A stretch of 64,000 bases of DNA from assembly GCF_030651915.1 (NCBI RefSeq), contig NZ_JAUSBV010000011.1:2501-66500 (forward strand). Direction: 5' to 3'. Below, in pieces: positions 29,252-35,374 of this stretch; positions within the stretch are counted from its first letter, which is position 1; each line of letters opens with the position of its first letter. The notes beneath the pieces were generated by a model. It saw only the letters and a program-made list of their open reading frames with translations. It made no database searches and had not been told where the DNA came from. The translations under genes were made by a program, and so were the position numbers. This DNA is from Parvibaculum sp. GTDB taxonomy: Bacteria; Pseudomonadota; Alphaproteobacteria; Parvibaculales; Parvibaculaceae.

Positions 29252-30433
29252 ATGCCATCGCCCACACCCTTCACCATCAATGTTCCTCAGGAAAAGATTG
29301 AGGCGATCCTGAAAAAGGTCCGCGCCTATGAGTGGCACGAAATGCCCGAAATCGCTCCCGGCGCCGACCGCTGGGCCTACGGCACCGACATCGATTATAT
29401 GAAGGAGCTGTGTGGCTACTGGGTCGACAAGTTCGACTGGCGCGCGGCCGAGAAAAATCTCAACCGCTTTCCGCAGTTCCGTGCCGACGTCGACGGCCAC
29501 AATATCCATTTCATCCATGTGAAAGGGTCGGGCGCCAATCCCGAAACCGTGTTGCTAACCCATGGTTGGCCGGGCTCGGTGTTCGAATTCCTCGATGTGA
29601 TCGAACGGCTGGCCCATCCCGAGACATGCGGCGGCAAGGCGGATGACGGTGTCAATCTGGTCATTCCGTCGCTTCCCGGCTACGCCTTCGGCGGCAAACT
29701 GAAAACGCCCATCGGTCCGCGCGGCACCGCCGCGCTCTGGGACAAACTGATGCGGGACGTGCTGGGCTACCAGAGCTATATCGCACAGGGCGGTGACTGG
29801 GGCGCCGTCGTTTCGGGCTGGCTCGCCTATGATCACGGCGTGCCGAAGGGCGGCTGCAAGGCCGTACATCTCAACATGTTCGGCCTGCGGCCCGCAGTCC
29901 TTCCCGAGACCGACGAGGAAAAGCAGTGGGCGCAAGGCGCGGCCATGGTTTTCGAGCTCGAGAGCGCCTATCTGCGCCTGCAGATGACAAAGCCCCAGAC
30001 ACTCTCCTACGGCATGATGGACAGTCCGGTGGGCACCGCTGCATGGATTGTCGAAAAATTTCATGGCTGGTCCGACCGGCGCGGCAAGGACGGAAGCGAG
30101 CACATCGAGAACGCATTCTCGAAAGACCAGATCCTTACCAACCTGATGATCTATCTGGTCACGGGGACCTTCAACACCGCGACCTGGTTCTATCGCGGCC
30201 TGTTCGAGGAGGGTGGAAACACCATGGCGCCGGGAACGAAAGTCGAAGTGCCCACCGGCATCGCCAACTTCCCGAAGGAATTTCTCCGGTTCCCGCCACG
30301 CAGCATGATCGAGAAGGGCTACAATGTCGTCCACTGGACCGACTTCGAGCATGGTGGCCATTTCGCGGCGCTCGAGACCGGCCCGGTCTTTGCCGACGAC
30401 GTTCGCGCCTTCGTGCAGCTGGTCAAAGGCTGA
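29252..30433 (+). CDS. Epoxide hydrolase family protein (EHN N-domain, alpha/beta hydrolase)
   Basis: FTINVPQEKIEAILKKVRAYEW..., HGWPGSVFEFLDVI, QGGDWGAVVS, HWTDFEHGGHFAALE. Confidence 0.9.
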   Translation: MPSPTPFTINVPQEKIEAILKKVRAYEWHEMPEIAPGADRWAYGTDIDYMKELCGYWVDKFDWRAAEKNLNRFPQFRADVDGHNIHFIHVKGSGANPETVLLTHGWPGSVFEFLDVIERLAHPETCGGKADDGVNLVIPSLPGYAFGGKLKTPIGPRGTAALWDKLMRDVLGYQSYIAQGGDWGAVVSGWLAYDHGVPKGGCKAVHLNMFGLRPAVLPETDEEKQWAQGAAMVFELESAYLRLQMTKPQTLSYGMMDSPVGTAAWIVEKFHGWSDRRGKDGSEHIENAFSKDQILTNLMIYLVTGTFNTATWFYRGLFEEGGNTMAPGTKVEVPTGIANFPKEFLRFPPRSMIEKGYNVVHWTDFEHGGHFAALETGPVFADDVRAFVQLVKG

Positions 30434-30440
30434 GGACGCC

Positions 30441-31649
30441 ATGACCCATCGCATCGTACCGGCGGACCCTTTCACGATCCGTATCCCCGAAGCGGAAATC
30501 GCGGATTTGAAACGGCGCCTGCGCGCCACCCGCTTTCCAAACGAACCGCTCGGCAACGAAAGTTGGGAGTACGGAACGAACCTCGACTACATGGAACGCC
30601 TGGTCGAATACTGGCGCGACGATTTCGACTGGCGGAAGGCGGAGGAAAATCTCAACCGCTTTCCGCAGTTTCTTGCGACGCTCACCGACGCCGACGATGA
30701 GGACCACACGATCCATTTCCTCTATGAGCGCGGCTCGGGCGATAACGCGATTCCGCTGATCCTGACGCATGGCTGGCCCTCGACCTTTCGCGAATTTCTC
30801 GACGTGGTCGATCCGCTGGCGCACCCGGAAAAATACGGTCGCAAAGGTCCCGCCTTCGACGTCGTCGTGCCGTCGCTGATCGGTTATGGCTTCTCCTCGC
30901 TGCCGCGCAGGCCGGTCGGTCCCGCCGCTATTGCCGATCTCTGGCACCGGCTGATGACCGAGGTGCTGGGTTACGACCGTTATGCGGCGCAGGCCGGCGA
31001 CTGGGGCAGCTTCGTCACCTCGCGTCTGGCACTTCAGCACGCCGATGCGCTTCTCGGCATCCATCTGACCATGCTGCCGCTCCGGCCGGCGTTGAAACAT
31101 CAAAGCCAACCGCCCGTCAGCGAAGACGAAGGCCGCTGGATCGCCGACATGCAGAAATGGTGGCGACGCGAGGAAGGCTATCGTTCGATCCAGTCAACAA
31201 AGCCGATGGCGCTCGCTTTCGCCCTGACCGACAGCCCGGCCGGCCTGGCCGGCTGGCTCGCCGACAAATATTATCGCCTCGGCGACACCGACAAACGCAC
31301 GCCAATGGACGGCATGGTGGCGCGTTTCCCCTTCGACGACATCCTGACCCAGTTCTCGATCTACTGGTTCACCGGCACCATCAATTCGGCCAACACGCTC
31401 TATAAGGCGGGGCCCGCCGAGGGCTCGGCAATGCTGAGGCCGGGTGAAAAGGTGACGGTGCCAACCGCCTATTCCGAATATCCGATCGACGTGCTGCCCG
31501 ACACACCACGCTCATGGGCCGAACGTGGCTACAATATCGTCCGCTGGCGGATCATGAAAAAGGGCGGTCACTTCGCGGCGATGGAGGAACCGGAACTGTT
31601 TGCCGACGATGTCCGCGCGGCCTTTGCCGAGATGGGTGTCGAACGCTGA
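30441..31649 (+). CDS. Epoxide hydrolase family protein (second copy)
   Basis: FTIRIPEAEIADLKRRLRATRFPNE, HGWPSTFREFLDVV, QAGDWGSFVTS, MKKGGHFAAMEEPE. Confidence 0.9.
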   Translation: MTHRIVPADPFTIRIPEAEIADLKRRLRATRFPNEPLGNESWEYGTNLDYMERLVEYWRDDFDWRKAEENLNRFPQFLATLTDADDEDHTIHFLYERGSGDNAIPLILTHGWPSTFREFLDVVDPLAHPEKYGRKGPAFDVVVPSLIGYGFSSLPRRPVGPAAIADLWHRLMTEVLGYDRYAAQAGDWGSFVTSRLALQHADALLGIHLTMLPLRPALKHQSQPPVSEDEGRWIADMQKWWRREEGYRSIQSTKPMALAFALTDSPAGLAGWLADKYYRLGDTDKRTPMDGMVARFPFDDILTQFSIYWFTGTINSANTLYKAGPAEGSAMLRPGEKVTVPTAYSEYPIDVLPDTPRSWAERGYNIVRWRIMKKGGHFAAMEEPELFADDVRAAFAEMGVER

Positions 31650-32180
31650 TCAGGCCGGATCGGGGGCACCGGCACCGAGATCGATCCACTGCGTGTTCTC
31701 GTATGCGAGTATCTCGTAAGGCCCGTGCTCATAGGCCACGGTCTCAATCGAACCGAAATACGACAGGATCATCCAATGCCCGGAGCGGCCGTGACGCATC
31801 GGCAGCGTCAGCGCTTCGGCCCGTTCGACCAGATTTTCGCGGCGAACGCGCAGCATATTCCAGCGGCCGCAGGGTATACCCGTCTGCACACGAAGAAGAT
31901 CGAGATAGTGCGGACGCGCTTCCGGCGCAACGAGATCGAGCGCGTTGCCCCCGGTCGGATCGAAGCCCATCGCGCGACAAACCGCCGTGCCCGCCAGCCG
32001 CTGCATGATGAGGTCGTCCGACACGATCTCGAGAATGGTGATGGCCGGCATCAGTGGTGCGATCGGCACCGGGCTGAAATCCTTGCGGTCTGGCGCAAAT
32101 CCATCCTTGGGAAGACTATCCCAATAGGAGAAGAAGCGCCGGGCGCCTGCGGTGCGCAGAAAGTCCGGAAATGCCAGCAT
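31650..32180 (-). CDS. PAS domain-containing protein
   Basis: FFSYWDSLPKDGFAPDRKDFSPVPIAPLMPAITILEIVSDDLIMQRLAGTAVCRAMGFDPTGGNALDLV resembles PAS_5 proteins. Confidence 0.7.
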   Translation of the reverse strand: MLAFPDFLRTAGARRFFSYWDSLPKDGFAPDRKDFSPVPIAPLMPAITILEIVSDDLIMQRLAGTAVCRAMGFDPTGGNALDLVAPEARPHYLDLLRVQTGIPCGRWNMLRVRRENLVERAEALTLPMRHGRSGHWMILSYFGSIETVAYEHGPYEILAYENTQWIDLGAGAPDPA

Positions 32181-33424: not shown

Positions 33425-33451
33425 TGTCACAAGTCCCCACGCTGCCCCGTC
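33425..33451 (+). promoter_or_regulatory. Putative ECF41-dependent promoter
   Basis: TGTCACA-N16-CGTC, 36 nt upstream of the first gene of the ECF41 module. Confidence 0.6.
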
Positions 33452-33486
33452 TTGATGATGACACACCCCCCTATCGGAGCACCGCC

Positions 33487-33909
33487 ATGACCGCCCTCAA
33501 GACCCCGCACCCCGCCGCACGGATTCCGAAGCCTGCCTTCCTTGCCCTTTGGGGCGGGCTCTGGCTTGGCAACGCCCTCTGGATGCTGGCAGATCCGGCC
33601 GGCTGGTACGCAGGCGTCGACGGCGTCGCCAATACCGGTCCCTACAACCCGCATTTTGTCCGCGACATCGGCATGGCCTATCTGACGCTCGCCTTGCTCG
33701 CCTTCGCGGCGATCCGCTGGACAGCACAGGCGACGCCGCTCATCGGCGCCGGCACCCTCTTCCTCGGGCTGCATGCGATCCTGCACGTCTGGGATATCGC
33801 CGCCGGCCGCCTGCCGGCCGAACACATCCTGATGGACATACCGGGTGTGTTCCTCCCGGCCCTTGTCGGTGCATTGCTCACATGGTGGTGCGCACCGCAG
33901 CACAACTGA
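33487..33909 (+). CDS. Small multi-pass membrane protein of unknown function
   Basis: Four hydrophobic segments; CGGAG ribosome-binding-like site before ATG. Confidence 0.75.
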   Translation: MTALKTPHPAARIPKPAFLALWGGLWLGNALWMLADPAGWYAGVDGVANTGPYNPHFVRDIGMAYLTLALLAFAAIRWTAQATPLIGAGTLFLGLHAILHVWDIAAGRLPAEHILMDIPGVFLPALVGALLTWWCAPQHN

Positions 33910-33932
33910 CCCCTCACGCCAAGGAGACAATC

Positions 33933-34484
33933 ATGTTTGGATTTCTTGCCCGCCGCCTCATCGATACGCAAGAGCGGTTGACCGGATCGAGCGCCGATTA
34001 TGCGCGTGACCTCTATGCCGGCTCGCCCGGCGCTTTCTGGCGCTTTACAATTTCCATGATGTCGTCCCGCTACGTGAAGACATTGCCTCCGGAAGCCTAC
34101 TGCGCCGCGGGATTCGGTGCCCTGCGCGCCGAGGATTGTGGCCCATGCGTCCAGATCGGCGTCAACCTCGCCCTCGCGCAAGGCATCGCAACCGCCGTCG
34201 TGCGCGCCGCCGCAACGGGCGATGTCGCATCGCTCAGCGAGGAAAACCGGCTGGCCTACGAATTTGCCTATGCAGTCGCAACGCGCGACCTCCGCGCGGA
34301 GGAGTTGCGGCCCATGGTCGAAAGAAACTGGGGCAAGGCCGGCCTTGCCGAACTGGCTCTGGAAATCGCAAGCGTGCGGGCCTATCCGGCAATGAAGCGC
34401 GCTTTGGGCTATGCTCAAACCTGCCAGCGCGTCGTCATTGAAGGCGAGGTGGCCGACGCGCGGCCAAGGGAGGCAGCGGCATGA
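33933..34484 (+). CDS. Carboxymuconolactone decarboxylase/AhpD-like protein with CGPC motif
   Basis: AEDCGPCVQIGVNLALAQGI resembles the CMD/AhpD CxxC helix; adjacent to an ECF41 sigma factor. Confidence 0.6.
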   Translation: MFGFLARRLIDTQERLTGSSADYARDLYAGSPGAFWRFTISMMSSRYVKTLPPEAYCAAGFGALRAEDCGPCVQIGVNLALAQGIATAVVRAAATGDVASLSEENRLAYEFAYAVATRDLRAEELRPMVERNWGKAGLAELALEIASVRAYPAMKRALGYAQTCQRVVIEGEVADARPREAAA

Positions 34485-35374
34485 CCGCTACGGCAAAATC
34501 GGTGCGAAGCGACGAGATGTTCGAGCGCCATCGCGCCCGCGCCTTCTCGGTCGCTTATCGAATTGTCGGGTCGGTCAGCGACGCCGAGGATGTGGTGCAG
34601 GAAGCGTGGCTCCGTTGGCGTGGCATCGATCCCGCGACGATCCGCAACCCCGATGCCTGGCTCGTTACCACCACGGCGCGCCTCGGCATCGACGCCTTGC
34701 GCGCCGCACGGGCACGCCGCGAAACCTATGTCGGACCATGGCTGCCCGAGCCAATGGTCGAGGCCGCCGCTGACGCCGAGCCGACGCCGGAGGACCGCCT
34801 TGCGCTCGCCGACGACGTGTCGATGGCGCTGCTTCATGTGCTGGAGCGTCTCGCGCCGGAGGAGCGCGCGGCGTTTCTTCTGCATGATGCATTTGACTAT
34901 GACTATGGCGAGCTGGCAGCCCTTCTCGGCAAGTCGGAAGCGGCCTGCCGCCAGACGGTGAGCCGCGCGCGCCGCCGCGTGCATGACGAGCATCCCCGTT
35001 TCGACACCAGCGCCCGCGAACATGCGCGCCTCGCCGCCGCATTCGGCAATGCAATCGCCGCCGCCGATCCAAAGGCCTTGCTCGAATGCTTCACGGAAGA
35101 CGTCGTGTTCTATTCGGATGGCGGCGGCAAGGCCATCGCAGCGCTCAATCCGATCCATGGAGCGGACAGCGTCAGACGGTTCTTCTTCGGGATATTGAAG
35201 AAAGCACAAGGCGCGATAGAAGCGCGTGCGGTTACGGTCAATGGTCGACCGGGCTTCGTTCTGGAAACGGGCGGAAAGCTGGACACGGTCCTGACCTTCG
35301 GCATCGCCGACGGCCGCATAGCGGCGGTCTATGCAATGCGCAATCCAGACAAGCTGGCGCGGGTCAGGGTCTAG
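34481..35374 (+). CDS. ECF41-type (SigJ-like) RNA polymerase sigma factor with C-terminal SnoaL-like domain
   Basis: GSVSDAEDVVQEAWLRW, YVGPWLPEP linker, C-terminal domain ending RNPDKLARV. Confidence 0.9.
   Translation: MTATAKSVRSDEMFERHRARAFSVAYRIVGSVSDAEDVVQEAWLRWRGIDPATIRNPDAWLVTTTARLGIDALRAARARRETYVGPWLPEPMVEAAADAEPTPEDRLALADDVSMALLHVLERLAPEERAAFLLHDAFDYDYGELAALLGKSEAACRQTVSRARRRVHDEHPRFDTSAREHARLAAAFGNAIAAADPKALLECFTEDVVFYSDGGGKAIAALNPIHGADSVRRFFFGILKKAQGAIEARAVTVNGRPGFVLETGGKLDTVLTFGIADGRIAAVYAMRNPDKLARVRV

Follow-up and report, generated by a model that had tools for sequence, protein, structure and literature searches.

The 64,000-nucleotide stretch of Parvibaculum DNA analysed here (the window) most likely carries an autoregulated ECF41 operon in which two proteins, a four-transmembrane (four-TM) protein called MEM here and a CMD/AhpD-like protein, are conserved outputs of the sigma factor encoded behind them. 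Few sigma factors without a known signal are as widespread as those of ECF41, and MEM, as a conserved membrane protein under an ECF41 promoter, suggests that such a system acts at the membrane or in the periplasm. Sequence is the source of the operon's layout, its promoter, the order of its genes, their conservation, the invariant residues and the predicted folds described below, and promoter recognition and self-inhibition are carried over from the literature on relatives.

Layout of the operon and its promoter

An earlier note on this DNA had described three close genes behind a promoter, and all four parts were recovered where it had placed them:

33425..33431, + strand: -35 element, TGTCACA; identical to the published ECF41 consensus, kept before the operon in the family and beyond
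33448..33451, + strand: -10 element CGTC, after a spacer of 16 nt; consensus match and conservation
33487..33909, + strand: MEM, a 140-aa four-TM protein; AlphaFold2 (AF2) model, residue invariance and loop charges
33933..34484, + strand: CMD/AhpD-fold protein, 183 aa, with DCGPC (C69, C72) and C164; AF2 model, homologues and fold match
34481..35374, + strand: ECF41 sigma factor, 297 aa, with sigma2, WLPEP linker, sigma4 and SnoaL_2 extension (DGGGK, NPDKL)

The distance from the promoter (CGTC) to the MEM ATG at 33487 is 35 nt; longer versions of the MEM open reading frame start upstream of the promoter (33238) and are unlikely. The operon stands alone between two minus-strand genes that we take, from the look of their translations, to be accA and xerD, and no classical anti-sigma gene is found between these two. 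Upstream of the accA-ECF41 region lie two tandem genes that resemble epoxide hydrolases by sequence appearance (window 29252-31649).

The assignment of the third gene to ECF41, made in the same note, holds on several features of the sigma protein (P0001). It scores 348.8 bits against NF007214 (SigJ-type; curated cut-off 271) and 338.2 bits against TIGR02957 (cut-off 323.25), and it contains Sigma70_r2, Sigma70_r4_2 and, at the C-terminus, SnoaL_2, all above their gathering scores, in agreement with the ECF41 plan of sigma2 and sigma4 alone followed by a SnoaL-like extension of about 100 aa. Its start codon shares 4 nt (ATGA) with the end of the CMD gene. The motifs DGGGK and RNPDK of the C-terminal extension, presumably the published ECF41 extension motifs, are invariant in 15 aligned relatives. 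The linker carries YVGPWLPEP, in which W-L-P is invariant in relatives, and WLPEP in the sigma2-sigma4 linker has been described as the characteristic ECF41 motif (Wecke et al. 2012, PMC3426412). This is the sole ECF41 factor of the genome, with the next match reaching 34% identity over the sigma core, and the ECF41 feature of an adjoining COE gene combined with a TGTCACA-n16-CGTC promoter is present as well.

The promoter proposed for the operon is identical to the published ECF41 consensus, TGTCACA-n16-CGTC, which was built on 285 sites and two experimental ones (PMC3426412). A scan of the 3.5-Mb genome for this motif returned only 3 exact copies, where our own estimate predicts about 5 (spacers 15-17, bases equally frequent), and a single one of them precedes an ECF41 operon. 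At the observed density, the chance of an exact copy in a given 100-nt upstream region is about 4e-5. The second copy, which lies within a reading frame for a protein similar to uracil-DNA glycosylase, and the third, which has no ORF of at least 70 codons starting within 160 nt, were both rejected as targets. It could be argued from these two exact matches at unrelated places in the same genome that the match at the operon is itself coincidental and that another promoter drives transcription, but this is extremely improbable, as the motif is kept at the same place across related operons though the spacer changes, and a CMD gene, which is a known type of ECF41 target, follows the sites of the sole other recurrent class in the genus. 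With the promoter placed as it is, a 5' UTR of about 30 nt would be expected, alike to the 32 nt of R. sphaeroides RSP_0606 (PMC3426412).

MEM and the CMD-like protein

The claim that the membrane partner is a four-TM protein without an assigned family is borne out, as no Pfam or NCBIfam profile reaches its threshold against MEM. The best Pfam match is DUF6790, with E 0.012 and 15.9 bits against a gathering score of 27.1. A few MEM homologues give marginal profile matches to the membrane families DUF4345, DUF6790 and DUF7471, whereas MEM of the window stays below the gathering thresholds and is placed in neither DUF4345 nor DUF6790. The AF2 model presents a confident four-helix protein (pLDDT 94.9). 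When this model was used for a fold search of the PDB, only poor matches were returned (tetraspanins and ferritins, best E 0.7), and because of this no function is taken from the fold. The loops are positively charged at the N-terminus and in loop 2, and acidic in loops 1 and 3, and an N-in/C-in topology in the inner membrane is therefore predicted.

H56, H96 and H100 are invariant across 127 sequences (89 distinct MEMs from MEM-CMD-sigma trios and 38 others), and D60 is invariant in the same sequences bar one ambiguous residue, giving the conserved patterns HFxxD and HxxxH. H56 and D60 lie at the start of helix 2 and H96 and H100 near the end of helix 3, so placed in the model that the four residues are predicted to cluster on the periplasmic side, near the periplasmic face of the membrane. 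This cluster is probably a binding site for a metal or haem, which would be the simplest reading, or else a redox site of another kind. A redox partner of the DsbB/VKOR type was also considered for MEM, and the idea was dropped because a conserved Cys is absent, with no Cys column reaching 90% conservation in the 89 distinct trio MEMs.

The second gene had been described as encoding a CMD/AhpD-like protein with a CGPC motif. This description is upheld by homologues and by fold, whereas the window protein itself (P0003) falls below the Pfam CMD threshold, with no match to PF02627 even at E 1. Among its homologues, 15 of 35 match PF02627 at E up to 0.01 (best 5.7e-7). The AF2 model (pLDDT 92.1) adopts an AhpD-like all-helical fold with the CxxC on a helix, and Foldseek places Bmp8 first (6ohi; TM 0.71, probability 1.00, E only 0.06), followed by AhpD-like entries. 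Fold and CxxC are thus common to this protein, the Bmp8 debrominase (identity 18%) and AhpD-like proteins, but the CMD partner differs from them in a third invariant Cys and in its DCGPC motif. D68, C69, G70, C72 and C164 show no or almost no variation, and C164, the third Cys, is present in 95 of 95 CMDs. In AhpD-type CMDs a His usually follows the CxxC, and the DCGPC motif here is without it. From its modelled fold and CxxC, the protein is probably a cytoplasmic thiol redox enzyme.

Conservation of the promoter-MEM-CMD-sigma arrangement

Within Parvibaculum, the complete promoter-MEM-CMD-sigma arrangement is found in 20 of 27 congeneric genomes, and one more congener (G027) has MEM-CMD at a contig end. 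Losses take several forms. MEM and CMD are both missing from G012 and G016, where the promoter directly precedes the sigma gene; in G017 promoter and sigma are left together with a remnant of CMD; CMD is gone from G014, whose sigma gene is truncated; and two incomplete genomes contain none of the operon's parts. In the same family, seven genomes of genus g3 carry the trio behind the same promoter although their MEM has an identity of only about 35%. In genus g5, which includes Tepidicaulis, two genomes have promoter-MEM-sigma with no CMD. As G534 also has MEM-sigma without CMD, the pairing of MEM and CMD is not strict. By the promoter-MEM-sigma locus of G534 (L185), two exact ECF41-type promoters lie on opposite strands, possibly marking a divergent second target.

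A class-wide sample of 387 genomes contained ECF41 at 78 places in 76 genomes. Promoter, MEM, CMD and sigma occur together at 19 of these loci, in the same gene order in all; a further 12 have CMD-sigma with this type of CMD and no MEM, and 47 have neither. Conversely, ECF41 is present in 26 of 27 MEM-bearing genomes, compared with 76 of 387 overall (hypergeometric p ~2e-19, kinship ignored). Among the best 80 MEM homologues in GTDB contigs, 61 lie in MEM-CMD-sigma trios, a share that is biased upward because the homologues were ranked by similarity to the MEM of Parvibaculum. A comparison of trio MEMs with solo ones does not suffer from this bias: the promoters of the 61 trios score 11/11 in 55 cases and 10/11 in 5, with one cut by a contig end, whereas 12 of the 13 solo MEMs, which have no CMD or sigma beside them, score 7-8 of 11, the background level. 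Co-conservation of MEM with ECF41-CMD, a check set beforehand, therefore holds among the congeners, at the class-wide loci and in the GTDB contigs.

The trio genera include Parvibaculum, Caulobacter, Phenylobacterium, Bradyrhizobium, Herbaspirillum, Noviherbaspirillum, Aquabacterium, Solimonas, Nevskia and others. As the arrangement recurs in alpha-, beta- and gammaproteobacteria, MEM is a real part of the system and not an accidental neighbour. The unassigned membrane partner pointed out in the earlier note thus holds up, but the arrangement is not peculiar to the window, being instead a widespread ECF41 sub-architecture. The sigma tree has 125 rows, of which a few are long branches or truncated loci; one (L277) counts as MEM-less only because MEM is cut by the start of its contig. 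On well-supported branches of this tree, the MEM label must change at least 10 times. MEM has therefore been gained or lost repeatedly, yet always in the same slot.

At three loci (L117, L119 and L120) the solo MEM is followed by genes resembling, by appearance, gamma-carbonic anhydrase and glutathione S-transferase genes, and is preceded by weak ECF41-like sites (9-10 of 11). At another (L264) the solo MEM has a 10/11 ECF41-type promoter and no ECF41 is found at E 1e-40 in an assembly that may be incomplete.

Across the 27 Parvibaculum genomes, just two classes of exact promoter match recur, one at the MEM operon and one at an unlinked gene for a canonical CMD. This second protein, CMD2 (P0004; PF02627 E 6.5e-19), was found by protein search in 12 Parvibaculum genomes (L330-L341, e.g. 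L324:986-1536), and none was found in the window's own genome at E 1e-30. The promoter lies upstream of CMD2 in 12 of 12 copies (7 at 11/11 and 5 at 10/11), and two genomes (G013 and G034) carry the variant GGTCACA at both the operon and CMD2. Such a shared promoter suggests a two-locus regulon in those genomes, and the rule of one target per ECF41 factor, drawn from few species, may consequently not be general. Small proteins of PAS-like appearance are encoded near both the ECF41 operon (window 31650-32180, minus strand) and the CMD2 locus (L324:1533-2051, minus strand), which is probably a coincidence.

Role of MEM and comparison with known ECF41 systems

By analogy with relatives, the fused SnoaL-like domain would hold the sigma factor in check until, on a signal, the sigma factor directs RNA polymerase to TGTCACA-N16-CGTC. 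It would then transcribe MEM, CMD and itself, presumably as one transcript, which would amount to positive autoregulation. MEM would probably act in the same pathway as CMD, the two forming a functional pair.

MEM had been put forward as a candidate for either signal input or output, and of the two, output is better supported by the gene arrangements, as MEM comes first behind the ECF41 promoter, keeps that promoter when unlinked (in one genus) and is missing at most ECF41 loci. The unlinked copies are found in genus g109, where CMD stands behind a promoter of its own with no adjoining MEM; MEM lies elsewhere, preceded at the same position by a promoter scoring 11/11 in G143 and 10/11 in G228, with -35/-10 spacers that differ almost completely. 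In G259, promoter-MEM-CMD is located away from the sigma gene. Both arrangements are as expected of a target. The promoters of solo MEMs in genus g107 are weak or marginal (9-10 of 11), and most solo or unlinked MEMs in ECF41-bearing genomes have no ECF41 promoter. MEM therefore has other uses, control of unlinked MEM is supported for a single genus, and the wider proposal, by which ECF41 would control all solo MEMs in genomes that have it, was tested and rejected.

A regulatory role of MEM is unlikely. As a signal input, MEM would be a membrane sensor or an anti-sigma-like tether that relays a signal from the periplasm to the sigma factor or to its SnoaL domain, and its conservation beside the sigma gene and the cluster near the predicted periplasmic face would suit such a role; an autoregulated sensor could likewise come first in the operon. 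This is nevertheless doubtful, as 59 of the 78 class-wide ECF41 loci have no MEM beside sigma, the AF2 model shows no sizeable cytoplasmic domain (the N-terminus is about 15 aa), and targets typically look like the unlinked MEM, with an ECF41 promoter of their own. Moreover, the ECF41 factor of B. licheniformis is active in B. subtilis, a heterologous host with no ECF41 system, from which it follows that a further partner protein is unlikely (PMC3426412). It is less probable still that MEM is a passenger that settled behind the promoter and has been kept only by vertical descent. The patchy presence of MEM, the many changes on the sigma tree and the occurrence of the family alone might be explained in this way, but the same promoter-CMD slot in three proteobacterial classes, the polar residues invariant in 127 distinct sequences, the joint absence of MEM and CMD from G012 and G016, and the promoter kept by the unlinked copy all speak against it.

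It could be speculated, as a possibility that we hold tentatively, that MEM is the first member of a new family of inner-membrane redox proteins that bind metal or haem. Together with the CGPC-containing CMD it would then act on an electrophile or oxidant located in the periplasm or the membrane, and the Parvibaculum ECF41 regulon would be a two-locus detoxification pathway made up of MEM-CMD-sigma and CMD2. With its invariant 3-His/1-Asp cluster, MEM provides a handle on ECF41 systems in the form of mutable residues, and it is conserved under the same promoter in three proteobacterial classes, with Caulobacteraceae, Bradyrhizobium and Herbaspirillum among its hosts.

The systems of R. sphaeroides (RSP_0606-0607), B. 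licheniformis (ydfG-ecf41) and S. meliloti RpoE9 (SMb20029-SMb20030) have the same sigma architecture, SnoaL-type extension, CMD target and promoter as the operon described here (PMC3426412, PMC6180224). Unlike that operon, none of them has been described with a membrane gene, and each reportedly has a single target, whereas some Parvibaculum relatives add the unlinked CMD2. M. tuberculosis SigJ, the best curated family match (NF007214), has SnoaL_2 in common with the window's sigma factor and belongs to a different lineage. As a point against the reading favoured here, Wecke et al. (2012, PMC3426412) saw no oxidative-stress phenotype in ECF41-altered B. licheniformis or R. sphaeroides. Only cupin proteins are named in their main text, and the section compared here offers neither a four-TM family nor a signature nor a regulon analysis. 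Their Fig. 2 does include unnamed hypothetical genes, drawn as white arrows and either preceded by an ECF41 promoter or placed between sigma and COE, and MEM may be among them. Relative to the papers compared, MEM appears new as a conserved, unnamed member of ECF41 operons.
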